Assembly: GCA_028554645.1 (NCBI GenBank)
Contig: JAQOOI010000073.1
Location: 1,116,001 to 1,180,000, forward strand
DNA length: 64,000 nt
Origin: Omphalotus guepiniiformis
Lineage: Eukaryota; Basidiomycota; Agaricomycetes; Agaricales; Omphalotaceae
Direction: 5' to 3'
Both the position numbers and the translations under genes were made by a program. The notes under the pieces are model-generated. The model searched no databases, was not told the DNA's origin, and saw only the letters and a program-made list of their open reading frames with translations. The first letter of the stretch is position 1. Each line of letters starts with the position of its first letter. Shown piece by piece: positions 13,510 through 43,253 of this stretch.

Positions 13510-15002
13510 TAATAGCAGCGTAATGAGCACTCTAAGACGTAGGAACTCGTCTAAACTCAAAGGTTGCCTTGTAAAAGCGAGTGTAGTCTGGCGTTGGCAA
13601 AGATTCCGCACGCAGAAAACTGACTAAAGTCGAGCTAGACTGTTGGAAAGACTAACTGAACTGTAAGATCACCGTCTAGACCCTTCGACGAGTACCAGAA
13701 ACAGCAAACAGACAGACACAGACAGACAGACACAGACAGACAGACACAGACAGACAGACAGACAGACAGACAGTTCAAACACAACAGATGTTCAGATATT
13801 TAGCACTCTATTAAAGCACTGCAATTCCTAATAGTCCGCCTCTACCAGCTCGAAGAACCGGGGCCTGACGTTCACAATCAAGAGGCCTTCTGCGATTTAA
13901 CGCTCTAGAAGATACGTAAAGTTCTCCAATTTGGCGGGCAGTCGTAACCTGGGGCGCTCGACCCTATACATGACAGTATATGTACTCTACTGCTTGTAAG
14001 TATTTCATAAATAGATAGAAAACTGAGTGGAGTAATTAAAAGGAACAGAGGGATAACATCGAGTATAAAATGGATATAAACAGAAACAATATGACTGAGT
14101 TGGGTAAGTAGGCACGTCTAGAGGGTAATTATGTGCAGTTCTTGGGTATATATGTGTAAGTATTATGTTTTAGTGATGTTTTTGGTACATCTAGACCCTT
14201 CTTATCATGCGCTCGAGCCATTCTAAACGAACTACTCCTATGCATTTCGTTATTATTCATCTTCGTAACTGTTTTACAGTGTACTTATAGGGGCGCCGAG
14301 GGCAGTTTCTAGTCATTTATCCCGTCGGGCTTCCGTATTTTCTCCTATTTCGACATCTAGACCCCATAGCACCTCGTAGATATACCAATATCCAGCGCTC
14401 GAAGGTCAATTCTGTCATTACTTTACTAATAAGTTATTATACAGTCATCGAGACTGATCATTTTCATAGCTTTGACCATCTAGTATCTCGGAACGGAATC
14501 GTCGATCATATATTTCCGATCATAAAGCGTTATCTCCAGTATATCATCAATCTGCAGGTTCTAGGAGGTCGGCTAAGTTCGAACAAACCATTTTGATGGC
14601 TCGGCGATACCTCTAGCTTGGTCCTTTCGACATTATCGAGGCTCATGAGGCTATTACGCCTGTGTGTGTGTAGTTTCTTCCTTCCTAAGTCCCGTGGATT
14701 ACACAGATACTTAAATAGCGACTTCCAGACGAAGGGCTCTTTGCCAGGCAGGGTGGGTCTGACCATACTGTACAGTCTCGCAGCAGGTAGTTACTTCGCC
14801 GAAGGTCTAGAGGCATATCAGCCATAAGGTCTTGATGCATACTCGTACATCGTAGTCCTTTCACTTCGAGCCTTTAACTATTCGTGTTCTATGTTTTAGC
14901 TAGCACTATGGGACATAGTCTAGCCCTTTATTCCCATCATATTCACAGTAGAAATCGTTTAATTTCAGGTATTTCAGGTGTGTATGCGTTTTCAGCGCAA
15001 CA
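13510..15002 (-). repeat. Element A 3' LTR (on element strand)
   Basis: 1493 bp; in element orientation it begins TGTTGCGC and ends CTATTA, so it ends in TA rather than CA. It contains a CAGA/CAGACA microsatellite near 13707-13771 and several copies of the CTAGACC motif (13674, 14190, 14357, 14806). Short frames inside it recur in the other LTR and are not genes. Confidence 0.92.
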
Positions 15003-15037
15003 TCTCCCCCAAACCAAATCTAGACCGTCCCCGGTCT
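15003..15037 (-). promoter_or_regulatory. Element A terminal polypurine tract plus inverted-repeat module
   Basis: On the element strand TTTGGGGGAGA (15013-15003) directly abuts the LTR and is the expected plus-strand primer. Eight bases away is the perfect inverted repeat AGACCG-TCCC-CGGTCT (15022-15037), which reads as a GGGA loop on element RNA. The same module recurs at 17905-17941 and twice in element B with different arms. Confidence 0.8.
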
Positions 15038-15509
15038 GGTGATCGGTCAGTCATACAGCCAAAGATACATTCTAAAGCTTCGCAGACAGCCTGTTGATTA
15101 TATAATACTTATTCACACACATCTCAGAGTTCGCCGAAGCAGTGGTACACTGTTCATTGCTTTTTGCCGGTCTATGCCGATCATCAAATTTCAAACTCCA
15201 ACCAAAATACTCTCGGCCAGCTGTTTGCCTTCGGCAATTGCCGTAGGTTCTTTTCAGGCAAGTGACTTTCCGTCTCTTTTCCTCTTTCACATTTCTTATT
15301 CAGTTTCTTACTTCTCTATTCTTTCTTTTCACGCATCTCTCAGCCTTTCACTGGTCCGTGCGCCGTGGGAACATGGTCAGGTGAGTCGTTCCATAAGTAA
15401 ACGGACTTCAACTTTTTCACGCCCATTCTTCCTTTCTCTCTATTTTTCTCTCAGAGTGGCTCTAGCTCTCTGTCTCTCTCTATATATACTTGTTCTTCCT
15501 TTACTCCTA

Positions 15510-17393
15510 ATGGCGCGAACCACGGGCAAAGCTTCCAAAGGGAAGGGCAAGGGTCCGGCCTCAGCAGTGGCTAAGAAAACTCGCGCGGGCAAGAAGAGCG
15601 CAAAGCCTCCGTCTCCACACGATCTGGCCAACCAACTGATTTCGATTCTTAACGACGTGTACCGTCGACAGTTCGATAAACCTCGTCGTAACCCCCCTAC
15701 CGTTTCCGAGATGGTGAAGGCGGTTGAAAACGCGGTCCCCATCATGGTAAGTAGTAATCCGTTTTAAATTCTTATTATTTTCTCATTATTCTTTCAGGAT
15801 TCCCTCTTTGAAGATGTCAATTTTGAAGTCGACGAGTTTTGCCCCCACGTCCGTGGTGTGTGGCTTGCTCTCCTTCGACTCTCCCATCCGCTCGAATCTC
15901 GTATCTCCGCCCTCTCTGAATGCGGGTGGTATCTTTCCAAAACCGAACGCCAAGATAAATATGCACTCGAATCAGTAAGTTCAAAATTTCTCTTTAAATC
16001 TTTCCCCAGGTCTTAGTTCTTCATTCTTCAGTTTCATGACTTCAAGACTGAACTAGACGATGTCTGCGACGCTCTTGGCGACGATACTATTCTCGATGTC
16101 TCTGATGACGAGTTCGTCGATGTCTCGGACGATGAATCTGTCACCATTAAGACCGAAGTATGTTTCTCTTATCTTTTATCCACATGTTTTCTTACCCCTT
16201 CTCTTCAGCCTATCCAGACTTCAAAGAAGCGACGCATTACCGAGATCGACGACGACGACGACTTGTTCTCGTTCAAAAAGACTCGGGCCGCGACACCTTC
16301 TGATAAAAAGGTTCGCGCACCCTCGAGTCTGTCTAAACCGAAGCCAAGGCCTAAGCCCAAAGTCGAACGCGTGCCCTCACCGTCTCCTAGTGCTGCATCT
16401 CAGGTCCCTCCCGCCGTGGACGATGCTCCGTCTCACCCCAGCGGACAAACTTCAGAACTCGGCACTTTTACTCTTCCTGGGAGCGACCAGGTATTTAATT
16501 TGGAGGAGCTTCTGCAAGCGACGTATACGCTCGACTCAGTAAGCTTCTCTTTTCTCTTTTCCATCTATGATTTATTAATCCCTTTTCCTTAGGTGGTGGG
16601 CCATCTTCCTTGTACTCGATGTACCGCTAGCCACACCGCTCACCAATGTGTCGCTCCGACGAACCCCAGTACGACACACAAGTGTCTGTCCTGCTACAAG
16701 GGCAGGCAGCCTTGTTCCTGGACACTTTCCCCGGCCAAAGCGAGCGAGATGCGCAATATTCTGCTTGGCTACACTCGTCAGGGCTCGTTGAGTAAGTTCC
16801 TCTATTACTTATTTTATTTTCAAGCTAAATTGCTTTCTCTAGATCTGTCTCTCGAGGTCTCCTCACTGGTGGAAAAGATCGCCTCCTATGAGCAGATGCT
16901 TCGCAGCATTTCGAGCCTCGTCGACTGTGCTAACGGTCTTCGAGAGTCGATTGGCAAGGACCAGGACCATCTCCGAAAGGCATCCCCCGACCCTACCATC
17001 ATTTTCCAAATTCTTCAGCAACACGACCCCTCGTTCAAAGGCAACCTCGACGAGTTGAAGATGATCGGTGCAGGCTTGGGCTGGAACCTCTCCCTTCTGG
17101 ACAAAGGCGTCGTCTTGACTAAATCTAGCGCAGGCTTTCAGATTCAATCCGCGGCGACTCGACAAGGTTCCGATTTTTCGTCTTCAGATTCCCGAGGCCG
17201 GATTGAGCGCATGGTGGCTTCGGTCCTAGGCCCTACTCGAATGCCATCGTCTTCGTCTCGTGGGCCAGCGCCTGCCAGTCCTTCCTTTCCCGCGTCCTCT
17301 CTTCCAACCTTCACCACTCTCGATTCCAATCGTTCCCCGTTGGAGGAGGAAAGGGTGGGACAGCTCTTGGTCGAGGATACTCCGGAGAAGTAG
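15510..17393 (+). CDS. Element A accessory gene X (antisense, Cys-rich putative nuclear protein)
   Basis: Unknown function; lies antisense to gag-pol. Six exons (15510-15746, 15798-15974, 16032-16157, 16209-16538, 16593-16791, 16843-17393) with GT-AG introns of about 50 bp give 539 residues. The N-terminus is basic (KKTRAGKKSAK), followed by acidic runs with a KKRR-type nuclear signal, a proline/lysine-rich linker, then a double cysteine motif (CTRC-x8-C ... CLSC-x5-C-SW) resembling a zinc cluster. A coiled-coil-like helix and a conserved LGWNLSLL block follow. Element B carries a homologue that shares an exon junction at the cysteine motif. It is CpG-rich, unlike the neighbouring gag-pol. 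Start is the first ATG with coding character; an upstream ATG at 15039 in the same open frame seems to lie in leader sequence. Confidence 0.75.
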
Positions 17394-18151
17394 GTCCAGG
17401 TCATTGTCGAGGCGTAGTCAACAGTCCACGGACTTAAAATAATCTTTCATTATAGCGCAGCACGGAGTCTCTTTATAGAGCTCCAAAATTACTACATCTA
17501 GCAAGGGTTCTCTTCACAGAGGCCCCAAATATCTTTGTTTTCATTTCTTGTACCTTGTACATAGAAATATCGTGGCCTTAGTGCCAAAAATAAAAGCTTT
17601 CATGTTCTTCCTTTATGTGTGACTCATTGTTAAGTTCAAATTTAATTTAATATCTTTAAGATTGCCTTCGTCGAGGCTGTAAGTATGGACTTGTCTTAGA
17701 GCAATCCTATCTCGAATGTAGTAAGTAGTAGCTAGACCCGTTATTCGTAAGTCTCGTGCCCTTACTTATCACTTCTGTGCCTCAGGCACTTATTTGTTCG
17801 TTTCAACCAATCTTAGATGTTGATTTATTGAAATCTAAAACACTTAAGTTTCGTTTTTATGAAATCTTTAGAAATTTCAAAATTCTATGTCCTAGATGGA
17901 CTCCTCTCCCCCAAACCAAAAGAAGTTCAGCGTCCCCGCTGCATATCTCGGCTAGTCCTTAGTTAAGTCCAGGGTGCCTTAATCAGTCGGGCATGTTACT
18001 TCGTCGAAGGGACCAGGAGTTCCGCTTTCAGTCAGAAAAGTATAAAGGAGGGTCGCCGAAGGTGGGTCCAAGTTATCAGTACACTTTAAGACCTTCAACC
18101 TGCATTCTCGACCTTACTTTCGTCTTCTTCTCGTTCATATTTCATCGTCAC
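17394..18151 (+). promoter_or_regulatory. Element A spacer between X and Y with second PPT/inverted-repeat module
   Basis: A near copy of the terminal tract, TCTCCCCCAAACCAAA, starts at 17905. It is followed by the perfect inverted repeat CAGCG-TCCC-CGCTG at 17928-17941. A TATA box (TATAAAG, 18041-18047) lies 111 bp before the Y start. The upstream AT-rich GAAATTTCAAAATTC block has a counterpart in element B near 39852. This looks like the promoter region of gene Y, and possibly an internal plus-strand priming site. Confidence 0.65.
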
Positions 18152-19476
18152 ATGGCTCGAGGATCCAACAAGACCTGGCCCGAGAGGGATCAATGGTTAA
18201 AGGAGACTCAAGAGGCCATTACTGCCGCTCAAGCCGTTCAAGCCTTCCCCAAAGCCAGTCCCAAGCTTCTAGGACCAGTCGTGACGGCTCTAGCCGATCA
18301 TATGGTTTGTTTATTATATTCTTCAGGCTTCGTCGAGCTCATATTTCTTCATAGTCAAAGCCTTTGAATGCCAAAGTGGTGGCCAAGGATGATATCGCCT
18401 TTGATACCTTCCAGAAAGGACTCAACACTGTGATAGCTATTACAGAGATTGATGGGGTAAATCGTCCCTACCATCTAAATGGGCTCGAGGAGTTCTTTGC
18501 CAAGCTCGAGGTGCTTCGACAGCCCACTCGCAAGCGCAAGGTAACTCTCCTCTTTCCTCATTAATCTTTACAAGCTTCATTCTATACTCTTCACAGAACG
18601 TTAAATCTCCTCTTATCATCGAAGACGATGATGATGATGATGAGATCGAGTTCGTCGGAGGTCGGATTGCTTCTACTCCAGTAAGTATCCATATTTCTTA
18701 GGTCGAGACTCCGACTTGACCTAAGTTTAGGACTATAAAGCCGGACTCGCAGCCGCATTGGGTCTTTCTGCATCCATGCATGCCCCTTCTCAAGAATTAA
18801 GCCTTCCACCTGGCCTCAAGTTCAACAAGAAGGTCAGGGTAAGTGCGGTGTCTTCTTATCCATCATATTATAACTTCGCCGAACGTTCAGGACGTCGCGA
18901 ATCGTTCTTCTACTCTTTCATTGGCCCTCGGCGATGTACCTGGAATGGATGTACGTTCTCGTTCCTACCTCAAGGCCATGTATTACTTATCAGTTGCTCA
19001 GGATAACATTGCAGCTGCCAATGGCAAGCGCATTCGCCTCGAGCAACCCATTTCCGATCTTCGTGAGGATATTGAGGGTAAGTAAGCATGAGTTCTCCCT
19101 GTCTCGACCCTACTGATCATATTGACCAGAGGATAAGACCCTACGAGAAGCCGCCATCGCTACAACTTTCCGTCATATCGCGCTCACTCCATATCTCGAA
19201 CTGCCCAAGCTTAGCGTCGAAGCTTTACGCTCAGTTCTCAATTTCCTTCGTACCGAACAAGTCACTCTTCAGCATGCTGTACATTTCCATGCCAATCAAT
19301 ACCAGTTCGTTGTTAAACAGATGGACAACATTCAACGAGAGCAATTTAGTCGTCTCTCAGTCGAGGACAAGCAAACCGCTGATTCTTCATCTTCGGGGAC
19401 CCCTCAAGATGCTACCATGGAGGAGGCTGGGTCTAGCTCGGCTGATACCACAGCTACCAACTCTAGCAGTGCCTAA
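18152..19476 (+). CDS. Element A accessory gene Y (antisense)
   Basis: Unknown function. Six exons (18152-18304, 18355-18540, 18597-18680, 18731-18838, 18891-19077, 19130-19476) join in frame to 354 residues. It starts with MARGSNKTWPERDQWL, has an acidic Asp run in exon 3 (IIEDDDDDDEIEFV), an LGLSASMHAP block in exon 4 and a long helical C-terminus (LRSVLNFLRTEQVTLQHAV). A homologue with the same exon order lies antisense in element B. No catalytic motif or membrane segment is evident. It ends tail-to-tail with pol, about 260 bp away. The introns persist because the gene is antisense to the genomic RNA, an inference from orientation. Confidence 0.75.
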
Positions 19477-19734: not shown

Positions 19735-22700
19735 TCAGGTTCTGCGCTTAAATCCCTCAGGAGAAGGATGATCATCTTCTTCATCAGAATCATCTTCATA
19801 TTCCTCATCCCGAGGCATTCTTAAGTTCGGAATGGAGTCAAAAATGTAATCTCGACTTTGTTCGTCGTAAGTATCCTCATCTTCGTTCACCATACGTTCT
19901 AACTGTTCTGCAGTAAGGTCTATGAGGTCTAGCACGTTCGTAGGTAGGTCTATAGGCTCATATCTTGCAAAATGCGGCAGTACGCGAAAGGCAGCAATCT
20001 TTTCTTTAAGTACCGAGCCATCCATTTCAGCAATAATGTAGGCACCACCCTTAGTTCGTCTGATGACAATCATAGGTCCTCTATACCTTGGATACATCTT
20101 CCTGTCCAAGCTCTTCTCAATTTGAGTGTTTCGAACTTGTACTAGAGTTCCAGGTTTGAAATCATAGTCTTTTATTACATGTTCATAATCTTGTTCAAAC
20201 TTCTTCATAGTTCTTCTTTTCTCTTCGTCGACCCTGGAAATCATGCCCATAACATGAGTTCTATGCTTTGCCAAGGCTCTAGCCCTGTAGCCGATCAATT
20301 CTTCGTAAGTAAGGACTCTATCTGGTACTTCTACCAACCAAGTTGATTCTATAAGGTCTAGAGGCAGTATTGGTTCTGCTCCAGTTACTAAGAAGTAAGG
20401 AGAACATCCAAATCCTCTTCTAGTTGTTACTCTGTCTGCCCAAAGCACATGTTTGAGAAACCAGTACCAACGTTTAAGATCACCTCCCGTTGCTTTTACT
20501 AAAGCTTGACGGATATCAAAGTGTGCTCTTTCAATCTTTCCATTGGCTTGAGAATTATAGGCTGAGATACGAATCCCTTTAATCCCATACTTCTCTTCCA
20601 GCCATTTCAACATTGCAATCATGCTTCTAGCATTATCAGTTACCACTTCTTGAGGGCAACCCCATCTACATATTATATCTTCAAAGAACCATTCGCCTAA
20701 GGCTCGAGCTGTCTCATCTCTGATTGCTCGTCCCTCTGACCAAGAAGATAAAGCACATCGGCCATGTACAACGTTCTTACAGCCATTACTAGCCGGAGAT
20801 ACTTTGAATACATCCACATGTACCTTCTGGAACAGAGAAGGGGTGTGAGTAAGGGTAGGTGGTATTTTCAATAGCGCTAGAGCTCGATCTTGACATGCCT
20901 GACACGTTTTCACGAACCAGTTGACATCTCGCTCCAGTTCTGGCCACCAGAACCTCTTTTCTATCACAGCCTTCGTAGCATACATTCCTTTGTGTCCCAA
21001 ATGATCATGAGCACTATGCAGGATATACATACGGCGTCCTTTCTCAACTATTAGCTGATGTTGTCCACCAACTTCATCATTTCTTCGATACATACGTCCT
21101 TTCTTGTCGACGAAGTATCGAGACGCCTTCGAAAGAAATTTCTTTCGAGCTCGAGCATCCATCTCATCCAGCATATCCGATTCCGGATGCATTAAGAACT
21201 CTTTTATTCTTGGTAGCAGTCGATCTAGCTCAATCCCTATGGTAGTTCTATGTTCTTCCATATAAGGATGATCATGTTCCCATTCTTCTGTCGATTCAGG
21301 AGCTACTAGAACCTGTGCAAACTGGTCTAGAGTCTTTCCTTGTTCAAATAGTATGTGTTCTCGCCAGTAGGCGAATCTTCGTTCTTCTTCAATTAATTCT
21401 TGAATATCATCTTCGAAGTCTTCTACTGACAAGGCTAGACCCTGTAAGTATCCACCTCTAGAGTCTATTTCATGCTTAAAGTCTTCAAAGTCATAAGGGC
21501 CCTGCTCATTCTCATCTTCCTGACGAAACCGCAATGGTTCCCCATCATCTTCATCTAGATAATCTTCCTCTTCAGCAGGTAATCTCTCTGTTGGTTCACT
21601 ACCCGGTGGTGGTCTAGATAGTCCATCAGGTCCATGTATAGACCCCTTGATATGTACCAATTCAAAGTGATACTTTCTTATTTCTTCAATCCAACGATTA
21701 ATAGTTGCATTTGGGCCACTACTTGGGTTATCTAACATCCCTTTTATGTAGCTAGCATCCGTTTCTACAGTTAGATCCCTACAACCATAAGTTTGGTAGT
21801 AAGTATGGGCTAGCGCGAGCTTGAGCCCATATAACTCTCTCTTAGGCTGTGAGAACCTTGCTTCTCGTTCATTTAATGTTATAGATCCAAAGTAGTTATA
21901 AAACTTCTTCTTAGGATCTTTAGGATCTCTTTGGTATAAATAATATCCTACAGCCATCCATGATGTATCCACTGCTAGAGTAATGCCGCTAGACAACGAA
22001 TAATCAATTGGTTTCAATGCAGGAGCATTTCTAATGCCTTCTTTTAATAGCTCGACGGCTTCTAACTCTTTTTCTCCTATCTCAAAGGGAACTTGTGAAC
22101 TAGTCAACCTCGTGAGGGGTCTAGCCTTCTTTGCATAGTCTTTAATGAACATCCTGAGTTGTCCTGCAGTCCCCAAGAATGATTTAACGTGTGTACGCTT
22201 CGTCCATTGAGTTGCATCCCATGACAAAATGGTCTTAGCCATCTTTTCTTCAGGTAATTCACCCTCATACGAGACTCTATGTCCCACAACATTTCCTTCT
22301 GCGCAGCAAATGAATGCTTTAGGTCCTGAGAAGGTTCCTCCAGCATGTTTCATTCGTTGAACAATTCTATTCATATTTTGCATGTGTTCCCATACAAATC
22401 TTCTAATTCCACTGTTCTCAGGAATTGTTTCGTATCCTCCACCTTCGAGCTCATATCTAGTAGACGGTCCTTTCACTGGAACATCATCTATATAGGGTCT
22501 CGTTATGTGTGGAATTTCTTCTTTCAATATATAAGTGATATCATCATGATAGATTGGTACTGAGTTAGTCCAACCCATTGGTAGTTTTACAAGTCGGTGA
22601 GGGCCAAAAGGAGTTTGAAACGTCGTCAAATCCCTCGATCCCTCATCTACGAGCCTTTCATCATAGCCTACAAATACATCTAGCAGTCCAATACAAGATC

Positions 22701-23742
22701 TGCCTGCAAAGCTTCTAGCTATATCAGCCGTAGCAGGAGGTATGCCTGAGTGTTGAATTGTGACCTTATTTAACGGTTCTAGACTGTGTACTAGCCGTAA
22801 ACTTTTGCCATCTTTCTTCAAAACACAGAACCATCTGGATCTATAAGAGGAGCTCGAGGGTTCGTAGACCCCAGAATCAATCTTATCTTTAATTATTTTG
22901 CATACATCTCCATAGATCCCGGGCGGAATAGGTATATTCCTCTCGACCCATGGAGTATGTGGTATAACAGGAAATTTAACAGGTGGAAAGAACTCTGTCT
23001 TGAAAGTTCCCCCTTCTGAAGCTTCCCATGCAAAACCTTTCTCTTGTACCTTCATTAAGTGATGTACTAGCTTCATTTCTTCAGGCCATAAGAAGTCTTC
23101 ATCATGATTCTTCTCAATAATAGCTTTTCTTTCTTCATTATAACGTTCTCCAGGTGTGAAGTCTGGTGGATTTGGTGACAAAGTCGGCATCCCTTCTAGC
23201 GGGTCACCAGTTATGTGCCTTTCTATCCTGAACTCTTCTGGAAGCGTAGTTTTTACTGGTTTCACTTTTATTGCCACAGGTTTGTACTTACTGCCGAATA
23301 CTGCAAACGGTTTTCGAAATCTAGCCTTACTTCCACGAGGTAGGATCCTACAGTGTAAGTTTGGCATTTGCCGAACCATTTTCTCAGTTCGAGCAGCCGT
23401 ATTGAATACAGTAGCTGCCTCGAGACCCTCATACGCAGGTCTCGAAGGTACTTTCTCATCCTGTACTCTAGCTTCACGCCAAGTACAATATACCTTGCAA
23501 TTATCTTCGGTTATTTCCTTCTTCATGTAGCTTTTAAGCATAAGGGCAGCCTTGGGATCACTCTCTTCAATGCTAGCTCGAGATGCATATACATATGCCT
23601 CAGCCTTCTCATTATTAGAGAATGTCTCCTCATCAGGCAGTCTATACCCAGTTATTTCATATCTACCATCTTTTCCTAGGCCAATACTTACAGCAACCTC
23701 TCCCTGATGGCCTGTCAGATCTTCGAGGATTGAAAATTTCCA
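19735..23742 (-). CDS. Element A Pol (RT, RNase H, integrase)
   Basis: About 1,335 residues, read by a -1 shift from the protease frame at 23739-23733; the first ATG in frame (23541) lies about 65 codons in, after sequence homologous to element B. RT: LVHSLEPLNK, LLDVFVGYDER with the first Asp, KLPMGWTNS and YIDD. RNase H: AVDTSWMAVGYYLYQ, SQPKRELYG, VETDASY. Integrase: HDHLGHKG...CQAC zinc domain, then HVDVF, VTDN and NGKIER supplying D,D,E. RT-RNase H-integrase order marks the Ty3/Metaviridae lineage. The C-terminus is acidic. The frame is intact with no internal stop. Confidence 0.93.
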   Translation of the reverse strand, partial: WKFSILEDLTGHQGEVAVSIGLGKDGRYEITGYRLPDEETFSNNEKAEAYVYASRASIEESDPKAALMLKSYMKKEITEDNCKVYCTWREARVQDEKVPSRPAYEGLEAATVFNTAARTEKMVRQMPNLHCRILPRGSKARFRKPFAVFGSKYKPVAIKVKPVKTTLPEEFRIERHITGDPLEGMPTLSPNPPDFTPGERYNEERKAIIEKNHDEDFLWPEEMKLVHHLMKVQEKGFAWEASEGGTFKTEFFPPVKFPVIPHTPWVERNIPIPPGIYGDVCKIIKDKIDSGVYEPSSSSYRSRWFCVLKKDGKSLRLVHSLEPLNKVTIQHSGIPPATADIARSFAGRSCIGLLDVFVGYDERLVDEGSRDLTTFQTPFGPHRLVKLPMGWTNSVPIYHDDITYILKEEIPHITRPYIDDVPVKGPSTRYELEGGGYETIPENSGIRRFVWEHMQNMNRIVQRMKHAGGTFSGPKAFICCAEGNVVGHRVSYEGELPEEKMAKTILSWDATQWTKRTHVKSFLGTAGQLRMFIKDYAKKARPLTRLTSSQVPFEIGEKELEAVELLKEGIRNAPALKPIDYSLSSGITLAVDTSWMAVGYYLYQRDPKDPKKKFYNYFGSITLNEREARFSQPKRELYGLKLALAHTYYQTYGCRDLTVETDASYIKGMLDNPSSGPNATINRWIEEIRKYHFELVHIKGSIHGPDGLSRPPPGSEPTERLPAEEEDYLDEDDGEPLRFRQEDENEQGPYDFEDFKHEIDSRGGYLQGLALSVEDFEDDIQELIEEERRFAYWREHILFEQGKTLDQFAQVLVAPESTEEWEHDHPYMEEHRTTIGIELDRLLPRIKEFLMHPESDMLDEMDARARKKFLSKASRYFVDKKGRMYRRNDEVGGQHQLIVEKGRRMYILHSAHDHLGHKGMYATKAVIEKRFWWPELERDVNWFVKTCQACQDRALALLKIPPTLTHTPSLFQKVHVDVFKVSPASNGCKNVVHGRCALSSWSEGRAIRDETARALGEWFFEDIICRWGCPQEVVTDNARSMIAMLKWLEEKYGIKGIRISAYNSQANGKIERAHFDIRQALVKATGGDLKRWYWFLKHVLWADRVTTRRGFGCSPYFLVTGAEPILPLDLIESTWLVEVPDRVLTYEELIGYRARALAKHRTHVMGMISRVDEEKRRTMKKFEQDYEHVIKDYDFKPGTLVQVRNTQIEKSLDRKMYPRYRGPMIVIRRTKGGAYIIAEMDGSVLKEKIAAFRVLPHFARYEPIDLPTNVLDLIDLTAEQLERMVNEDEDTYDEQSRDYIFDSIPNLRMPRDEEYEDDSDEEDDHPSPEGFKRRT

Positions 23743-25088
23743 TCTTGTGGACTTCTTTCCTCTTCTGCAGCTTTTTGGGTAGCTGGTGTAAGTTTTTCTT
23801 CTCCTTCAGGCTTCGGTCCAATACCTCTGCCTCGTTCATATGTTCCCATTGTGCAGGTCATGCCAGAATTAGGGTCTCGAATCGTTAATTCTTGACTTCC
23901 ATCCTTATTTGTCTTAATATTACTTTCTGTTAAAACATCGAAGGGTCTTCCCAACAGAACTTTATATGGAGCTTTATCCATCACATGAATCTGCATATAA
24001 ACGACTATTTCACCAAAGGTAAACGGTACGTTCCTAGCTAGACCCCTGGTTGGGCTTAGCTGTCCACTAGCACTTTGCATATGGATAACAGTCTTTGGAT
24101 CCCAGGCTAGACCTAGTCCCATTGCTATATCCGTGTCCATTGATACTATTTGAGACCCACTGTCAAGTATACACTCGACTGGCCCTTGTTTATTAATATC
24201 AGGAAAGATAACTCGCAGACTATCACTTGGTCTGGCTACAATGATAATCTTTCCTCGTTCAGATGGCGGAACATCTTCGAGATATTGTTCTACAACATCT
24301 ACATGGACTAAAGATCCTGTTTGCAAGCCGCTCGAGCCTTCGAGGACCTGTACAAAGCAGTCTCCCCATGCTAGATCATCAATATCCACTACTTGAGTGT
24401 CATATGGCAAAGAGATAGAATCCTCAGGTAGATCAGTGTCTTCTGGGTTTTCCTCGTCTCTAATCTCTTGTACAAATGCCTTTAGAGGCCTCTTATATAC
24501 TCGACTATTCTTAGTCTTTCTATTCAATATTTTCTGCAAAGTAGGGGAAATAGCAATTACTTCTTCCATACTTATAGGTATTTCACTCTTTAATATCTTC
24601 GTTGCAACTTCTTCAGCAACTCCAGGCCTGTACACGCCACTTTGTAGTTTGTATTCAGGTCCCTTAGGCAAATCAAATGTTACTTTCTTCTTCGCCGAGC
24701 CTCGAGACTCTTCTATATCCACACTAGGTGTTCTAGCGGTCACTGGGGACGTTTCTAGACCCTCCTTTGGTGGTTGGATTCGTCTCTCAATAGGCTTTAT
24801 GTTATCAAATAGTCTTTTATTTAAGTTTTTCGTTTCCGGGACGTTATGCGCGGGCGCCTCTTTGCCTAATTCGGGCTCAGGGGTTTCCAACGACTCATCC
24901 GTCATGTTTATGGGTTTATACAAGTGTCGATTAAAGTTCTTAGGACGCTCTAGCACCACTTCGAGGCGTCTAGACGTCTTTCCAGCATTATCTTCCTCCG
25001 GAGCTTTGCTGGGAACAGGGCTAGGTAACTTCTTTGCACCAACTAGCACCTGTTTAAGCTCCTTCATCGAAAGTATTAGTTTTTCGAA
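23715..25088 (-). CDS. Element A protease frame
   Basis: Aspartic protease domain, retropepsin-like, with the catalytic triplet as DSGSQIVSMD near the middle and a later LLGRPFDVL strand. It is in the -1 frame relative to gag and entered at GAAAAAC (25085-25079). The first in-frame ATG is at 25067, but the frame is open back to the gag end, so a Gag-Pro fusion is more likely than separate initiation. The long N-terminal part is rich in Lys, Pro and Glu and is probably a linker. It ends at 23715, overlapping the pol frame. Confidence 0.88.
   Translation of the reverse strand, partial: FEKLILSMKELKQVLVGAKKLPSPVPSKAPEEDNAGKTSRRLEVVLERPKNFNRHLYKPINMTDESLETPEPELGKEAPAHNVPETKNLNKRLFDNIKPIERRIQPPKEGLETSPVTARTPSVDIEESRGSAKKKVTFDLPKGPEYKLQSGVYRPGVAEEVATKILKSEIPISMEEVIAISPTLQKILNRKTKNSRVYKRPLKAFVQEIRDEENPEDTDLPEDSISLPYDTQVVDIDDLAWGDCFVQVLEGSSGLQTGSLVHVDVVEQYLEDVPPSERGKIIIVARPSDSLRVIFPDINKQGPVECILDSGSQIVSMDTDIAMGLGLAWDPKTVIHMQSASGQLSPTRGLARNVPFTFGEIVVYMQIHVMDKAPYKVLLGRPFDVLTESNIKTNKDGSQELTIRDPNSGMTCTMGTYERGRGIGPKPEGEEKLTPATQKAAEEERSPQDGNFQSSKI
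23733..23739 (-). promoter_or_regulatory. Element A protease-pol -1 frameshift site
   Basis: On the minus strand the zero frame reads GGA AAT TTT CAA, giving the heptamer A-AAT-TTT in the correct X-XXY-YYZ phase. A -1 slip continues directly into an open pol frame that matches element B. Element B has the same heptamer in the same phase at 33880-33886. Confidence 0.8.
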
Positions 25089-26908
25089 CCTCCAGGAGTG
25101 TTTATAGACACTTGTCCATCAGACAAGGCCTTATACTCAACTCCCATCCTTTCTAGCTGTTCAAGTACTTGTACAGCCAATGTATCAACTTCATTATTTT
25201 CCATTCCCAGGGGGCTAGCTTCGTGCAGCTGCACCTGGTATGCATTTGGCATAGATTCTACTTCATATAAGAACTGATCTGGGTGGACTTCTACATCCCA
25301 TCCCTTCTCTTTTGCAATTTTCTCAATCTTTTCTTTTCTAGTCTCTTTATCTCCTTCATTTATCCAAGGAAGTGGCGAACCATCCTTTAGTTCCCATCTA
25401 TTCCTCGCATTTCGCTTCATCCATCCCTTACTTACAAAGTGATGTTGAGCTGGACAGTCTTGTGAACCATGTCCTCTGCCTCCACACATGAAACAAGCTA
25501 GATCACGGGCAGGCATAACTCTACTCGTGTCCAGAAGTCCTCTGTTAGGCATAGAAGACATACCAACATTCGTCGAAGACGCTAGACCCATATTTCCAGT
25601 GTTTCTACTTGACATTTGTACCATCCTTATCAAGGACTTCATCATCTCTTGATTCTGGTTCGTCATAGTGTCTAGCTTCTGGTGAATGGTCTTAATTTTC
25701 GTCTCGTTATCATCTACTGTGTACGAAATCTTTCGTTCCCACTCATTCTGTGCTTCTTCCTGCTTTATAGCAGTTAACCTGTCAGTCATAGATGGTCGGC
25801 TCGAGAGGGGTCTAGCTCCAGTGTTTATGACACCTGGTAGGCTCCAACTCGCTCCTACATCATATAATTCCTCAGGAGGAATAGCACATACAGCTTTTGC
25901 AGCTTTTACAACTTGCTCTAGAGTCCAAGGATCATCTCTTCGACGAACCCCTTCTCCAGTACCATTAGTTGATAATTTTCGAATAACTCTCTTTCTAAAC
26001 TGTTCTTCTAGAGCAGCTAGATATCCTTGTACTGCCTCGAAGTTCGAGATGACAGCATGTCCACTCATTAACTTCTTTGCTTCAATCTGATACGCCCTCG
26101 AGAAGGCCAAAAGCTTCTCTAGTTGACCAGATGGCACTAGCATGTACTTTTCAATTACACTCATGAGCCTCTGCTTCGAGCCATATCCGTCCTTATCACT
26201 AGAATCCGGATAGCAGTCAAGCAAGGCAACTCTAAATGTTTCCCAATCATCTCCTGAAGCTGCATCAAGCGTAGCTAGCTCCTTTCTCGTCTCATAAGTC
26301 ATGTATTTCAAGGCTAGATGGATCTTCGCCATCTCAGATCTGATATTTAAAGTCCTAAAGATTTCCTCTAAGTCCTCGAGCCATCCTGCAAGTTTCTCAG
26401 GACGATCTCTATCAAATATGGGTGCCTTCTTTGAGACTTTCGGTAACTGCTCGTTTTGTACTTCGGCGAGCACCTCAGCAGGTAGCTCTCGTAAGTATGC
26501 ATCTACTACTTCAGTTTGTTGAGGTCGGCGCGGCCGATTTCCTCCAGGATTTCGATTCGCCGCAGCCTCATCATTATTTGGTTGTCTCTGCTGCTGTGGG
26601 TTTCGCCCTTGACCAGCAGGTCCAGCAGTAGCATTATTTCCTTCATCAGGCATGTTTGTAAAATCAGAGAATTCAGGACTTGGTAGTCTTATATCTCCTA
26701 TAACTTCGTTTGTTCCTCTATACCTCTCTCTAGACAGAGGCAAGTTGTTTCGAACAGGGATTCTACTACGACGAGGGGGTCTAGACTCGAATATTAATTC
26801 TTCTTGTCCAGCCTCACGGGAATTTCGTGTAGTTCTAGGTTTTCCACGACGGCTAGAGTCACTAATCTTTGCAAGAGACTCGGATTCGAAGTAGAATACC
26901 TTGAAGTG
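25076..26908 (-). CDS. Element A Gag
   Basis: Capsid-type protein with helical core (LPKVSKKAPIFDRDRPEKL...) and one CCHC knuckle, CFMCGGRGHGSQDC, which binds genomic RNA. The first in-frame ATG is at 26653, but sequence upstream, open back to 26908, is homologous to element B (for example NSREAGQEEL against NSERAGTEEL). The true N-terminus therefore probably starts further up without AUG or by splicing. It ends TCG AAA AAC TAA, with the shift heptamer directly before the stop. The gag frame has no internal stop, unlike its counterpart in B. Confidence 0.88.
   Translation of the reverse strand, partial: HFKVFYFESESLAKISDSSRRGKPRTTRNSREAGQEELIFESRPPRRSRIPVRNNLPLSRERYRGTNEVIGDIRLPSPEFSDFTNMPDEGNNATAGPAGQGRNPQQQRQPNNDEAAANRNPGGNRPRRPQQTEVVDAYLRELPAEVLAEVQNEQLPKVSKKAPIFDRDRPEKLAGWLEDLEEIFRTLNIRSEMAKIHLALKYMTYETRKELATLDAASGDDWETFRVALLDCYPDSSDKDGYGSKQRLMSVIEKYMLVPSGQLEKLLAFSRAYQIEAKKLMSGHAVISNFEAVQGYLAALEEQFRKRVIRKLSTNGTGEGVRRRDDPWTLEQVVKAAKAVCAIPPEELYDVGASWSLPGVINTGARPLSSRPSMTDRLTAIKQEEAQNEWERKISYTVDDNETKIKTIHQKLDTMTNQNQEMMKSLIRMVQMSSRNTGNMGLASSTNVGMSSMPNRGLLDTSRVMPARDLACFMCGGRGHGSQDCPAQHHFVSKGWMKRNARNRWELKDGSPLPWINEGDKETRKEKIEKIAKEKGWDVEVHPDQFLYEVESMPNAYQVQLHEASPLGMENNEVDTLAVQVLEQLERMGVEYKALSDGQVSINTPGGSKN
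25079..25085 (-). promoter_or_regulatory. Element A gag-protease -1 frameshift site
   Basis: G-AAA-AAC followed by the gag stop TAA. The protease frame lies at -1 and is open from this point. The same heptamer and stop arrangement is found in element B at 32492-32498. It is near-canonical: the first base is G rather than A. Confidence 0.72.
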
Positions 26909-27064: not shown

Positions 27065-27300
27065 TAATAGCAGCGTAATGAGCACTCTAAGACGTAGGAA
27101 CTCGTCTAAACTCAAAGGTTGCCTTGTAAAAGCGAGTGTAGTCTGGCGTTGGCAAAGATTCCGCACGCAGAAAACTGACTAAAGTCGAGCTAGACTGTTG
27201 GAAAGACTAACTGAACTGTAAGATCACCGTCTAGACCCTTCGACGAGTACCAGAAACAGCAAACAGACAGACACAGACAGACAGACACAGACAGACAGAC

Positions 27301-27339
<39 letters not shown>

Positions 27340-28569
27340 GTTCAAACACAACAGATGTTCAGATATTTAGCACTCTATTAAAGCACTGCAATTCCTAATA
27401 GTCCGCCTCTACCAGCTCGAAGAACCGGGGCCTGACGTTCACAATCAAGAGGCCTTCTGCGATTTAACGCTCTAGAAGATACGTAAAGTTCTCCAATTTG
27501 GCGGGCAGTCGTAACCTGGGGCGCTCGACCCTATACATGACAGTATATGTACTCTACTGCTTGTAAGTATTTCATAAATAGATAGAAAACTGAGTGGAGT
27601 AATTAAAAGGAACAGAGGGATAACATCGAGTATAAAATGGATATAAACAGAAACAATATGACTGAGTTGGGTAAGTAGGCACGTCTAGAGGGTAATTATG
27701 TGCAGTTCTTGGGTATATATGTGTAAGTATTATGTTTTAGTGATGTTTTTGGTACATCTAGACCCTTCTTATCATGCGCTCGAGCCATTCTAAACGAACT
27801 ACTCCTATGCATTTCGTTATTATTCATCTTCGTAACTGTTTTACAGTGTACTTATAGGGGCGCCGAGGGCAGTTTCTAGTCATTTATCCCGTCGGGCTTC
27901 CGTATTTTCTCCTATTTCGACATCTAGACCCCATAGCACCTCGTAGATATACCAATATCCAGCGCTCGAAGGTCAATTCTGTCATTACTTTACTAATAAG
28001 TTATTATACAGTCATCGAGACTGATCATTTTCATAGCTTTGACCATCTAGTATCTCGGAACGGAATCGTCGATCATATATTTCCGATCATAAAGCGTTAT
28101 CTCCAGTATATCATCAATCTGCAGGTTCTAGGAGGTCGGCTAAGTTCGAACAAACCATTTTGATGGCTCGGCGATACCTCTAGCTTGGTCCTTTCGACAT
28201 TATCGAGGCTCATGAGGCTATTACGCCTGTGTGTGTGTAGTTTCTTCCTTCCTAAGTCCCGTGGATTACACAGATACTTAAATAGCGACTTCCAGACGAA
28301 GGGCTCTTTGCCAGGCAGGGTGGGTCTGACCATACTGTACAGTCTCGCAGCAGGTAGTTACTTCGCCGAAGGTCTAGAGGCATATCAGCCATAAGGTCTT
28401 GATGCATACTCGTACATCGTAGTCCTTTCACTTCGAGCCTTTAACTATTCGTGTTCTATGTTTTAGCTAGCACTATGGGACATAGTCTAGCCCTTTATTC
28501 CCATCATATTCACAGTAGAAATCGTTTAATTTCAGGTATTTCAGGTGTGTATGCGTTTTCAGCGCAACA
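27065..28569 (-). repeat. Element A 5' LTR (on element strand)
   Basis: 1505 bp; identical by eye to 13510-15002 except for 12 extra bases in the CAGA microsatellite near 27300-27340. It begins TGTTGCGC on the element strand at 28569, facing element B. Confidence 0.92.
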
Positions 28570-28573
28570 GCGC
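28570..28573. repeat. GCGC target copy 2 (A / B junction)
   Basis: GCGC between the head-to-head 5' ends of A and B. With the facing LTR ends it forms the 18-bp perfect palindrome CGCAACAGCGCTGTTGCG at 28563-28580 or thereabouts. Confidence 0.85.
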
Positions 28574-30416
28574 TGTTGCGTCAAAAAGCCTTTCAGTGCT
28601 GAAATCCATCAGATTGAAGTAAATATGGAATGTTCAAGCATTGGAAACTGAACATAAAGGACTAGAGTCACCCCAGACTGCTAGTTAAGACATGAAACAT
28701 ACTTGTACTCACAATGCCTAAGTGTAGTGATTGCTACAGTACTGAATCTGGTACTAAGCAACTGTGACCAATGGGTTATGCAAAGAGATACTAGTTATGC
28801 CTCTCCAGATGTGTTGGAATTCCAATGTTCCATACCAGATTGAGTTGGTCAGACCCACCCTCTAATAACTAGAGACTCTACCAAGTGTTGTTGACTGTAA
28901 TCCAAGGGGTTGATGGATTTTCACTTCAATTGAACAACTATCTAAGTCCTTTGGACTGATCAAAAGTTCCAGCTGGTCTTGCTAACTAAGTTGGCACTAT
29001 AAGATTGAATGCTGAGAATATGGGCAATCTTGAAGATTGTATTACCAGAGAAATATTGTACATTGAGTACTATGTGGATATAATGTCACTGAGATGAAAT
29101 GCCAATCTGTGTAATAATGGAAGTAGATTCAAAGTTACATCTGCACAAATGAGTTAGATACTCAATACTCATGATGGAAGGAGTTAGATACTGAAAATGA
29201 GTGTCTCTCTGGATCTGAGTATCTCTCTGAAATTCAGTAACCCTCTGAACTTGATGAAAGACAAAGGCACTCTAATTGGAGGTCTTAGACGAAACTATGG
29301 GATAGAATACTGTCCTAGGAGAAGCTGAGAGCTATCCTAAACAAGAAATATAACCTGAGTACAAATCTGACCAAAAAGAGATGTATAGGGGTAAAACTTG
29401 AAATAAACAGTTACTGTACCTTACTGTGGCTAATAGAAACGATGAAGCATGGTCTAGATAAGCTCTAGAACTTCTACACAACTCCTAATGCTGCCCTAGT
29501 AGAGGAGAATGTGCCAATTTTGGAGAAACTTATAGGGGACCAGATTTGCAATGCACTAAGGAGAATGTCACCTGTCAGGATACTGGTTGCTATTTACATG
29601 TTCTGGACCTTTATTTAGATACCCTGGGTACGCCCTAACACACCTAGAACGCGGACAAAGCAATATATTTCTGTTTTTATACCAATCTATACCCAAAGTT
29701 CCTACATTTTGACTATCTAACTGGAAAATTACCTAGAAAACTACCTAAAAAGAATCCAATCTCTGCTCAATTGATACTTACTTACTTTTGACTCATTTAC
29801 TGTTCAGATTACTCTTTTAATTTCGAGATATATGTTTGATTTTATGATTTAGTATATATAGCTTACAGAGTATCTATTTAGATTTTCTTAAGCAAGTACT
29901 GCCCAAAGCTCCAAGCCAAAGCAGGAAACCCTTCTTAGACGAAATATAGCCTGGCTCTTTAGAGTTCAGTTCGAGAAATATCCAGTTGTGAAAACTTCTG
30001 TAAAGTCCCTTGTGGCAGATAAATTGAAAGAGATACTGAATCTTTGCTGAAACTGCTGTTCTGTCTGTGCTGAATCTGCCTGCTGAAACTGTCTGTGCTG
30101 CATCTGAAACTGTTCCCTGCATTGTCTGACCATTGGATCGAGTTTAAACATCGAGATTGATTGTCCTGAATCCCTCCTGAACCCTGAAAACCACCCTTAC
30201 CTTCTGTCTGAATCTTGTGTTTTGAGATACCCTCTGCCATTTTTCACCCAGATTGAGATAAAGACATCTGTAACCCTGCAGATTCGAAGTTCAATTGTTG
30301 CGTCTAACTGTGCAGAATCTCTGACAACGCCAGTCACACCTCACCCTACATCATTTTGATTTGAGTTGGATTGTGCTCATTTGAGTATCTCTCTTGTTCA
30401 TTTCATAGTCACTACA
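28574..30416 (+). repeat. Element B 5' LTR
   Basis: 1843 bp, TGTTGCGTC...CACTACA. AT-rich, with two GTTAGATACT motifs (29155, 29186). The small frames in it recur at the same places in the other LTR and have no coding support. Confidence 0.93.
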
Positions 30417-30587: not shown

Positions 30588-32501
30588 AGTTTGCTTGTCA
30601 AAATTAGCAGCTCACAGAGAAACACACGTCCTAGAAAGACTAAGAATTCTGAGAGAGCTGGAACAGAAGAATTGTCACTGAACCAGTCATCCAGAAGGAA
30701 AAGTTCCAAAGGAAAAGAGAAAGAAGTCATACCTGAACCAGATTCAAGTTCACTTTCGTCTCTTTCGTCCCTAAGTACTATTCCTGAACGGAATACACCT
30801 CCAGATTTATCTGAACTCTCAGCTAGATACAGGAAAAATAAGAGGAACTTTGTCAACAGTCCTCAATATTTTGCCTTGACACATAAAAGAATCCCTGTTA
30901 AAATAATAAGGAACCCGAGAAACAATATGTCTACTCATGACAATGCTACTAGGAATGAAGCTCCCCCACAACAAGGACCTACCCAAGGACCTGTTGAAAT
31001 GGAAGAGATCTTCATTTTTGGAAATGCAACAGGAATGCAGATTCCTGTTCCTGCAGCTAAAGAGTTGCAGAATGAGAAACTACCTAAAGTCTCTAAGTAG
31101 GCTCCCATCTTTGATAAGAAACATCCATCTGAACTAGTTGCATGGTTGGCAGAGCTGGAAGGCATCTTTGTGTCAACCGGAACTAAAACAGATGCGGCTA
31201 AAGTGATGTTGGCACTCAGATACATGGAATTCCATACCCGTGAAGAGTTTCAACGGCTTCAAGCTGTTAAAGATTTGGATTGGGATGCTTTCAAAGAGGC
31301 ATTAATGAAAAATTTCCCTGAATCTGCAGATAGAGGACTGGGATCTAGACAAAGATTGTATGCTATCATTGATGCATATAAGCTCATAGTGCTTGGTGCT
31401 ATTCAGAAACTGATGGCATTTAAAAGAGAGTATGAGATTGAGTATGAGAAACTATCTTCTGGTACTACACCTGTAGTATCAAACTCAGAAGCTGTAGCTG
31501 GTTTCTTGAGTGCACTAGATGAACCCTTCAGAAGGAAACTTCTGGACCGCTTAGAAAACAAAGTGATCAATGGCCACTTACAAGTTCAGAGAGAGGATGA
31601 CCCTTTTACTCTGAAAGATGTAATGTCTGAGGCTGAAAAACTCTGTTCTGTAAAAAAAGCAGGGGGATACAACTTTGGTTTATTCTTGAATGGTCCAAAT
31701 CTGGCAGAAGGATACTCTAGGATACTCCCAACAACTGAGCAGAGTGCTACAAGGAAGTTATATGATCCTTACCAAGTAGCATCTACTGTGAAGTCAGAAC
31801 CAGATCAGTGGGCAATGAAATTGTCTGCAACAGTGGATAGTCACCAGAACCAGTTTAACCAGATTAGACAAGCCCAGGAGACGAATCTGGCAGCTCTTGC
31901 AAAGCTATCTGAGACAGTTGCTAACTTGGCAAAAATGACCTAAGCAACTTCTAGCTCAGTTAGGATGAACATGAATGCTTCAAATTCCCAATCTGGACCT
32001 GGAATGAACTCTAATGGACACAATAGTGTACAAAGATCGTCCCAGATGTCATCTGTGAATAATAATACTCATGCTGACTCCAATTGCTATATGTGTGATG
32101 AGCCTGGACATAGATCTATGGACTGTCCACATCAACTTAGATTTATCAGGTTGGGGTGGATGATCAAAAATAGTGCTGGTAAATGGGCATTGAAAGATGG
32201 AGTATATTGGCCAAGAGCTGATCCGTCTGATACTCGGTCTAAGAAAGAGAAGATTGAGGAAATTGCCAAAAGACATGGATGGGAACAACCTTCCTCTCAT
32301 GTTGACCAGAACTTGTATGCTTTTGAGGATGAGGATTCTGCTATAGCAGGTCCCTCTCAAAGTAGTTCATTAGATGCTATCAACAGCCTTGTTGCTCAAT
32401 TCAGTCAGGTTTGCAATACTTTGCAGAATCTGGCACCAGCAGCTAAATCTGAAACTAAGCAGATTTTGAAACGAGAAAACAACTCTGAGTCGAAAAACTA
32501 G
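30588..32501 (+). pseudogene. Element B Gag, with two in-frame stops
   Basis: Homologue of element A Gag. The frame opens just after a TAG at 30585-30587 and shows homology to A well before the first AUG (30927, MSTHDNAT). Stops interrupt at 31098-31100 (TAG, where A has a Lys codon) and 31941-31943 (TAA); all three pieces are in one frame. The CCHC knuckle CYMCDEPGHRSMDC remains in the last piece. It ends TCG AAA AAC TAG with the shift heptamer. Both stops could arise from glutamine codons by single C-to-T changes, though the ancestral codons are not known. As it stands it cannot make full-length Gag. Confidence 0.88.
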
Positions 32502-33907
32502 AGTTTCCAATGAAGGAGATTGGTGAAGAAGCTGTATATACTCAGAATCCTTCTCACAAAACAGGTCAATCTCCTGAGGAAAGTAAACTTGTAAAGAAAA
32601 AGAGAGTTGAAGTGTTACTACCTACACTAAGACCATCTGAAAGGGAGAAATACAGACCCCCTGCTATGAGAAAAGAGCCCGTTCGTTTTGAACTACCCGT
32701 TGATTCTGACACTGAGGAGATTGAATCTCCCTCTGAAAATAACAACAATGTTGCACGGAGAGTATCTAACCGTCCGTTTGATCATGTAAAGGCAATAGAT
32801 AGGCCACCTATACCAAAGGGAATGCCTGTAGGGAGCCAGAACAAGTCAAATGAGACTGAAGGAGCTCAATCTGGAACTAAAGATGGAATGAATATTGACA
32901 CAAGGAATGCTATTGTATACACAAAGCCTCCACGTAAATCTGAGCCTGATTTCAAGCTTAGAAACTCATTATTCAAACCGGGTCTAGCAGAAGAAATTGC
33001 AGACAAAATCTTTAGATCTGAGATAGATATAAGTAGTGGGGACCTCATTGCTATATCTCCAGCACTTCAGAAGATTATGCAGAGAAAATTGAAGAACAAC
33101 AGAGTATATAAGCGTCCTGTAAAGGCTTTTGTTCATGAAGTAAGGGATGAAGATGATCCTGATGGTATTCTACCAGAAGAAGATGTCAATCTGGTACAGG
33201 CAAATTATATGGTCTTTATTGAAGATATGGCCTATGAAAGGGAAGATGTGTTTATTGTCCTAGATGAAGACACAGAAGACCTTAAGAAAGGCTCAGTGGT
33301 ACACAAGGATGTTGTGGACCAGTATCAGAAAGATGTACCTCCAGATGAGAGGAACAAGATCATTATAGTAGCCAGCCAGACTGACAGTCTAAAGGCAATC
33401 TACCCAAAAATTAATCACTCTGATCAACAAGTTGAGACAGTAGTTGATAGTGGTTCTCAAATCGTGTCCATGGATACAAGAGTAGCTATTGGACTTGGTT
33501 TAAGATGGGACCCAGAGACTGTGATCCATATGCAAAGTGCAAATGGTCAATTACAGGCTACTAGGGGACTAGCAAGAAATGTACCATTTACCTTTGGAGA
33601 AATAACTATCTATATGCAGATCCACATAATAGATAAAGTGCCTTATGATGTTCTTTTGGGAAGACCATTTGATGTGTTGACAAGCAGTGTAGTCAGAAAC
33701 TTTGAAACTGGAGAACAAGAGATCACCATTACAGATCCAAACAGTGGAATGAAGTGTACAATGGGAACATATGACAGAGGTAGAGGAATCAAGGTTAAAC
33801 CTATTCCTGGTGAACCAAAGCTTGTCCCTGAAACACAGAAATCTGCGAGTGTCCCTGTGAAAAATGAGGGAGACTCTCAAAATTTTCATCGGACCTCAAT
33901 GAACTGA
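32489..33907 (+). CDS. Element B protease frame
   Basis: Homologue of the element A protease frame, open throughout. Catalytic DSGSQIVSMD is at about 33444-33473, followed by the conserved HMQSANGQL and LLGRPFDVL blocks. The first ATG in frame is 32510, but translation is more likely by -1 shift from gag. The N-terminal linker is Lys/Glu/Pro-rich. It ends at 33907, overlapping the pol frame, which opens after a TGA at 33865-33867. Confidence 0.88.
   Translation, partial: VEKLEFPMKEIGEEAVYTQNPSHKTGQSPEESKLVKKKRVEVLLPTLRPSEREKYRPPAMRKEPVRFELPVDSDTEEIESPSENNNNVARRVSNRPFDHVKAIDRPPIPKGMPVGSQNKSNETEGAQSGTKDGMNIDTRNAIVYTKPPRKSEPDFKLRNSLFKPGLAEEIADKIFRSEIDISSGDLIAISPALQKIMQRKLKNNRVYKRPVKAFVHEVRDEDDPDGILPEEDVNLVQANYMVFIEDMAYEREDVFIVLDEDTEDLKKGSVVHKDVVDQYQKDVPPDERNKIIIVASQTDSLKAIYPKINHSDQQVETVVDSGSQIVSMDTRVAIGLGLRWDPETVIHMQSANGQLQATRGLARNVPFTFGEITIYMQIHIIDKVPYDVLLGRPFDVLTSSVVRNFETGEQEITITDPNSGMKCTMGTYDRGRGIKVKPIPGEPKLVPETQKSASVPVKNEGDSQNFHRTSMN
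32492..32498 (+). promoter_or_regulatory. Element B gag-protease -1 frameshift site
   Basis: G-AAA-AAC then TAG, identical in phase and position to element A. The protease frame is at -1. Confidence 0.72.
33880..33886 (+). promoter_or_regulatory. Element B protease-pol -1 frameshift site
   Basis: Zero frame CAA AAT TTT CAT gives A-AAT-TTT in correct phase. The -1 product continues KFSSDLNELI and on into pol, parallel to KFSILEDLTG in element A. Confidence 0.8.
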
Positions 33908-42948: not shown

Positions 42949-43219
42949 CGGGGGACGGAGTGAGATGTGAAAAGAAAAACGAGAATCACTGTCTGTTTAA
43001 GTTGAAACTTCGACAGAAGCAGATTGCGGGTTTCGCCGAAGTCTGACATTGCCGTCACATGCCGATGTAAATGTATTGACTGGCGATCAATCGAGAAAAG
43101 TTTTGCCTAATGGCAGTCCGTGAAACGTGATATTGTGATATTGAACAGTACGAAATGCGCTTCTATGACAAATCTGCTAGTAATAATTGTATCTAACTCG
43201 ATTTTGGCCAATCTGGTAC

Positions 43220-43253
43220 GATCGGGGACGATCTTATTTTACTTTGGGGGAGA
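43220..43253 (+). promoter_or_regulatory. Element B terminal polypurine tract plus inverted-repeat module
   Basis: TTTGGGGGAGA (43243-43253) abuts the 3' LTR and is identical to A. Nine bases before it lies GATCG-GGGA-CGATC (43220-43233), a perfect inverted repeat with the constant GGGA loop. Confidence 0.8.

Follow-up and report, generated by a model that had tools for sequence, protein, structure and literature searches.

Two antisense, intron-bearing genes in Ty3-type retrotransposons of the fungus Omphalotus guepiniiformis, one of them present as two deeply diverged types

The function of antisense genes in LTR elements is unsettled. For plant elements, passages in two papers (PMC11963269, PMC7264820) propose that the products of antisense ORFs are nuclear or DNA-binding regulators; a word search of the former, a paper on Retand elements, found neither 'intron' nor 'fungi'. 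TRP28 is among the domains described for antisense genes of this plant kind. HTLV-1 carries an antisense gene near its 3' LTR, according to a section of PMC10186651, and HBZ is characterized in part of PMC11963269 as nuclear and important in the virus cycle. In fungi, PMC10648671 concerns noncoding antisense transcripts from transposons of a mildew. In yeast, as described in portions of PMC7055915 and PMC12530519, the breakpoints of mosaic Ty1 elements coincide almost exactly with the gag ORF, and the type of gag sets restriction, or copy-number control. Our search of the open-access literature, which did not extend to subscription papers, found no fungal LTR element with antisense protein genes. 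This agrees with the first-pass annotation of the locus described here, which knew of no such fungal pair, without being proof of absence. A further point of reference is provided by the heteroimmune lambdoid phages, in which an immunity cassette is swapped between otherwise related genomes, the repressor and its DNA sites moving together.

The locus lies in a window of 64,000 nucleotides from O. guepiniiformis (the whole stretch of DNA that was analysed), which contains two adjoining elements, A and B, in opposite orientations. Element A is bounded by a 5' LTR at 27065..28569 and a 3' LTR at 13510..15002 (minus strand; LTR comparison), which differ by no substitution and a single 12-base gap. 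Its gag-pol region occupies the minus strand from 26908 to 19735 and consists, from stop to stop, of a gag-like open frame (25076..26908; ORF list, with weak Pfam support), a protease frame (23715..25118) and an RT-RNaseH-integrase frame (19735..23805), the latter two recognized from the ORF list and Pfam. Pfam matches were obtained for the aspartyl protease, RNase H and integrase zinc-binding domains; the RT gave no Pfam hit and was recognized by eye from its motifs. A primer-binding site is present and a polypurine tract adjoins the 3' LTR. From these components and their order, with protease followed by RT-RNaseH and integrase, element A is a Ty3-type LTR retrotransposon. In the protein database its fungal pol relatives, which mark the host as a fungus, include proteins from Lentinula edodes (71%), Moniliophthora perniciosa (65%) and Armillaria ostoyae (63%); scans for pol in viral contigs and in genome contigs yielded no relatives. 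One protein with 70% identity to this pol is assigned to the metagenome assembly of a Thermoplasmataceae archaeon, which is probably a case of contamination.

Element B is delimited by LTRs at 28574..30416 (5') and 43254..45096 (3') on the plus strand, the starts being approximate by a few bases, and has its gag-pol frames at 30588..37986 (plus strand; ORF list). A and B lie back to back within a Ty1/copia element (LTRs 10344-10762 and 46698-47116), and GCGC flanks each of them in the arrangement GCGC-A-GCGC-B-GCGC (13506-13509, 28570-28573 and 45097-45100). Either both elements inserted at a single four-base target, or insertion favours that sequence.

Between pol and the polypurine tract beside the 3' LTR, and hence inside the LTRs, element A carries two genes antisense to gag-pol. 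Gene X, of the type here termed X-A, spans 15510..17393 on the plus strand (exons 15510-15746, 15798-15974, 16032-16157, 16209-16538, 16593-16791 and 16843-17393) and has 539 codons in six exons, with introns of 51-57 nt. Gene Y spans 18152..19476 on the same strand (exons 18152-18304, 18355-18540, 18597-18680, 18731-18838, 18891-19077 and 19130-19476), with 354 codons in six exons and introns of 50-56 nt. All introns in both models are GT-AG, and the exon models of the first-pass annotation were reproduced to the base. Intron 5 of X-A (16792-16842) is 51 nt long, in frame and free of stops, so that its retention would yield a longer X. Intron ends of Y are GT-AG in 69 of the 70 cases checked in 14 other copies, the exception being one mutated end in one copy, and the Y introns are less conserved than the Y exons in all 14. 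Each of these copies retains all five Y introns, which fits the earlier expectation that antisense introns outlast reverse transcription.

Neither gene could be assigned to a protein family. Pfam gave nothing above the family cut-off for X, Y or X' (the X homologue of element B), and a search of PDB by sequence recognized no domain (best E 0.14). No convincing similarity was found between X or Y and gag, protease, pol or each other (best E 0.54, Y against pol), nor between X or Y and gag at E values up to 1. The spliced proteins had no match in the protein database among candidates of 0.55-1.75 times the query length; this negative is weak evidence, because unspliced gene calls containing single X or Y exons would lie outside that length range.

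In order to follow the association of X and Y with this pol, we counted matches throughout one assembly (42.5 Mb, 80 contigs), to which all genome-wide counts refer. Antisense Y lies within 9 kb downstream in 92 of 99 scored RT matches (from 395 candidates); seven lack Y, and in none is Y present solely in the other orientation. Antisense X was found within 15 kb, with one query, in 81 of the 99; three had X solely in the other orientation and 15 had none. On the same strand and within 7 kb, X accompanies 96 of 127 Y matches and Y accompanies 95 of 112 X matches, the latter being those taken from 147 X rows after exon-5-only rows were left out. The possibility, raised beforehand, that X and Y are host genes captured once is thus contradicted: they accompany this pol genome-wide. 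Five RT matches of a subfamily near B (C78:606004, C78:629946, C18:708315, C38:181294 and C57:89532 in assembly G000) have antisense Y, and two queries did not find X in the expected place. Before Y in the copies on C18, C38 and C57, the hairpin-containing module described below was absent among the matches listed. These copies are either X-deleted derivatives or carriers of an unrecognized X type, and their existence suggests that X may not be needed in each copy. Conversely, two loci (C77:90300-92300 and C35:193700-195700) hold pieces of X with no Y nearby; one is ∼40-50% identical to both X types of family A (see below), the other 81% to X-C and 48% to X-A, which indicates that more X lineages exist or existed.

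Homologues of both genes occur in element B, likewise antisense and in the same order as in A. X' (40422..42948, minus strand, ten exons) is frameshifted in the window, and Y' (38189..39585, minus strand) has an early in-frame stop there; X' is intact in four copies elsewhere, whose ten exons encode 658-660 aa. Identity between X-A and X' is 24% and takes in a motif of six cysteines that ends in CSW as well as a C-terminal block containing DP, DPxF and LGW (DPxF in X' as read from three of the copies elsewhere, L055-L057), whereas the RTs of the two elements are 82% identical (RT pS 0.79). The last exon of Y is 37% identical to Y' over 82 residues. When the gene models of A and B are compared, four of the five Y introns (1, 2, 3 and 5) and the final two of X coincide in protein position. 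X and Y are therefore real genes and an ancestral pair rather than a one-off acquisition. Their presence in element B goes beyond the first-pass annotation, as does the polymorphism of X by type.

Both genes are under purifying selection. Relative to the window copy, Y has a dN/dS of 0.07-0.20 in all but one of 11 younger copies; the exception, L041, gives 0.30, and two old copies give 0.27 and 0.30. The corresponding pol values are 0.07-0.16 for 10 younger copies and 0.22-0.24 for the old pair, L041 having been dropped since its pol alignment runs into foreign sequence (pS 0.14, ratio 0.56). For X, dN/dS is 0.09-0.25 within types (eight usable pairs), 0.12-0.13 between X-A and X-C, and 0.07-0.14 for X' among the four intact B copies; X of L047 and L049, with ratios of 0.80 and 1.25, was dropped because the splice model is out of frame. 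A dN/dS near 1, which would have spoken against functional genes, was accordingly not encountered (Y, 0.07-0.30 in 13 copies; X-A against X-C, 0.12). X splice models were clean in just 9 of 17 copies tried, the rest needing extra or odd introns, so that many copies may be damaged.

A short module precedes the genes in both elements, consisting of CTCCCCC followed by a hairpin with the invariant core CG-TCCC-CG; on the sense strand this reads as CG-GGGA-CG ahead of the polypurine tract. The copy before X (15004..15038, plus strand) comprises the complement of the 3' polypurine tract itself and the hairpin AGACCG-TCCC-CGGTCT, and that before Y (17906..17943, plus strand) a polypurine-tract-like sequence and the hairpin CAGCG-TCCC-CGCTG. 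The equivalents before X' and Y' lie at 43218..43252 and 39779..39817 (both minus strand). The hairpin stems vary: the four are all different, with 20 of 20 cells paired. With these four sequences only, the covariation score was equalled or beaten by 2 of 500 shuffles, and the number of pairs changed on both sides (two) was reached by 243 of 500. On folding of the sense RNA the hairpin is the best structure in three of the four, the exception being the module before X of A. Genome-wide, the module pattern occurs 151 times, against 4 for a reversed control. The copy by Y, far from the LTR, is possibly an internal polypurine tract and a candidate plus-strand primer; the module may serve in plus-strand priming, as part of antisense promoters, or in both. 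TATA-like boxes are located 111 bases ahead of the start codon of Y (18041..18046, plus strand), 103 bases ahead of that of Y', and 29 and 411 bases ahead of that of X in A; none was seen before X'.

The copies of family A differ mainly in X. A search with X exon 6 gave 39 matches, equivalent to 35 copies after split rows are merged: six carry X-A (92-100% identity to the window), 28 a second type, X-C (64-73%), and one is a chimera. The chimera (C20:74k; L005, L015) is A-like in exons 1-4 and C-like after ∼16625, the product of a single crossover, and its halves seem to be out of frame with each other. Across these 35 copies, identity in gag, pol, LTR and Y is mostly 97-100%. Specifically, 35 of 37 matches to the last exon of Y have 93-100% identity and two are fragments (84-86%), and gag is 98-100% identical in 36 of 41 matches and 90-96% in five. 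When ten C-type copies were compared to the window in 250-base steps, identity was 55-77% between 15500 and 17500 and 88-100% outside, barring inserted or missing stretches in L040, L041 and L052; an A-type copy, L046, was 96-98% identical within X. The edges of the divergent stretch fall near the start codon of X and just beyond its stop. Among 33 X regions compared, five A-type sequences are 97-100% alike and 27 C-type sequences 92-100%, with 63-66% between A and C; the remaining one is the chimera.

X-A of the window and X-C of copy L045 each form an open gene with five introns; their proteins have 59% of residues in common, more than the X types have with X' (24-27%). For this pair of copies, pS reaches 0.73 in X but 0.036 in Y and 0.025 in pol; on the scale set by the RT divergence between families A and B, the X types are old. 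The divergence extends across the whole protein (53-63% identity by region), so that, together with the low dN/dS, no specificity patch is apparent. Positive selection as the origin of the types was rejected in view of near-saturated synonymous sites combined with a dN/dS of 0.12. Zn2Cys6 transcription factors carry the motif C-x2-C-x6-C-x5-12-C-x2-C-x6-8-C; X was considered as such a factor and rejected, its first loop being 8 residues in X-A and X-C and 10 in X', with no Pfam match. We also sought gag variants co-varying with X type and found none, and nothing was seen to vary with X type in the flanks; a type-specific target inside the element is therefore not evident.

The flanks of X have recombined. 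On the left (20 sequences), both types are found with the window haplotype (X-A in the window, in L001, which is the window copy itself, and in L004; X-C in L052), and both are found with the common C haplotype, X-A there in L002 and L003. On the right (42 sequences; the final 60 columns, absent in L001-L006 because those loci end there, were left out), L002, L003 and L006 depart from the window haplotype at differing points between ∼17400 and 17740; L049, a C-type copy, resembles the window at 17702-17747. Thus, on both sides each main flanking haplotype is found with each X type. Two old copies, with identities to the window of 95% in pol and ∼90% in Y plus its flanks, also differ in type: L051 is X-A (87-91% to the window) and L050 X-C (89-91% to L045). 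Compared with one another, they show 95% identity across 4.9 kb of Y and pol and 83% across ∼0.5 kb adjoining X. Since both types are present in old copies, both are older than the present backbone. Two deeply diverged X types thus reside on one recombining backbone, and the local peak of divergence with recombination around it has the shape expected of long-term balancing selection, which introgression can produce as well.

Family B displays a local excess of divergence in the same gene, but a weaker one. The last exon of Y' is 96-99% identical in 39 other scored copies (62 candidates), and for the last exon of X' the range is 78-98% over 39 further scored places (51 candidates). Five B copies were fetched, of which L054 was left out owing to a truncated X'; the other four are 88-92% identical to the window in X' and 94-97% on its 5' side, and Y', read in L057 only, is 97% identical. 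Three lineages of X' differ from each other by a pS of 0.31-0.39, and one has 0.06 internally; the last exon of Y' gives 0.04 (window and L057).

That X and Y form an old, selected antisense pair is established for families A and B of this genome. As to what the pair does, we tentatively favour, at somewhat short of even chance, a reading in which it belongs to a Ty3-type lineage of mushroom fungi and X is a trans-acting, type-specific control factor, its types maintained by an advantage of rarity. X and Y would be expressed from integrated copies through antisense promoters of their own, then spliced, and would act in trans on the expression or replication of the element, X presumably being the specificity part. 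A copy with the rarer X type would escape control by resident copies of the commoner type, and as a consequence neither type would be lost. The working mode might be likened to Ty1 copy-number control in yeast or to heteroimmune phages, with a protein unrelated to gag. Speaking for this reading are the common antisense layout of A and B, purifying selection on both genes, the confinement of divergence to X, the exchange of flanks between types, the presence of both types in old copies, the weaker excess in family B, the apparently out-of-frame chimera and the Ty1 precedent; weighing against it are the lack of a co-varying target or specificity patch, the many possibly damaged X copies and the five RT matches with Y but no X. 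More specifically, X could be a self/non-self recognition locus of the retrotransposon, with two ancient specificities under frequency-dependent selection in one recombining population, and antisense so as to be made only from integrated copies and to keep its introns every cycle, but this we regard as rather doubtful. The counts of 28 against 6, from one genome only, could be due to drift.

The main rival is introgression, by which X of one type, whole or in stretches, was acquired from an element in a related species or subfamily through recombination during reverse transcription, both types persisting as interchangeable versions of a gene that is needed. This is quite possible: recombination of diverged elements is expected to leave sharp edges at the gene, the flanking haplotypes show that the elements do recombine, dimorphism with low dN/dS requires no recognition role, and parts of PMC7055915 describe a similar gain of gag by Ty1. 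However, both types are already on old copies, family B too has local divergence in this gene but not in the adjacent ones, and a donor backbone was not seen among the copies read in this one genome. Population data would separate recognition from introgression. An arms race, in which X counters a host restriction system and its types match alleles of a polymorphic host factor, would account equally well for a single gene with old diverged types and for the faster evolution of X than RT between A and B; yet dN/dS is low at every depth measured and both types persist in one genome, where a single host genotype meets both, making this explanation unlikely. That the antisense RNA itself is functional, in silencing or interference, with the reading frames incidental, is very improbable and already disfavoured. 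Antisense transcripts can regulate LTR elements, as noted in a passage of PMC7264820, but X and Y have dN/dS well under 1 and, in A and B, homologous proteins with common intron positions. Scarcely tenable, finally, is the view that the genes are annotation artefacts or decayed host genes carried along: the spliced proteins are unmatched in the protein database, a search that could hardly have detected them, and linkage, selection and splice-site conservation all argue to the contrary.

Coding on the antisense strand is a simple means by which an RNA-copied element can keep an intron-bearing gene, and the ∼35 near-identical copies that differ mainly in X constitute a natural swap experiment, through which the role of an antisense transposon gene can be tested directly. 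Should the types prove to be maintained by selection, they would to our knowledge be the first allelic dimorphism maintained within a transposon population. Among the described systems, HBZ of HTLV-1 resembles the genes reported here by layout, as an antisense gene near the 3' LTR, but here there are two genes and a polymorphism of type. The lambdoid phages differ in their co-varying target, which is not seen here. As in plant elements of the Retand type, the antisense coding region lies between pol and the 3' LTR; unlike in these, there are two genes, with six to ten exons apiece, in a fungal host, X is dimorphic on a common backbone and Pfam gave no domain above cut-off. The gene swapped in Ty1 is gag, which lies on the sense strand, whereas here it is X, which shows no similarity to gag or pol, and neither X nor Y shows the derivation from gag that marks the Ty1 restriction factor. 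What the elements described here have in common with Ty1/Ty1' is the exchange of one gene, at the edges of its ORF, in an otherwise near-identical element.
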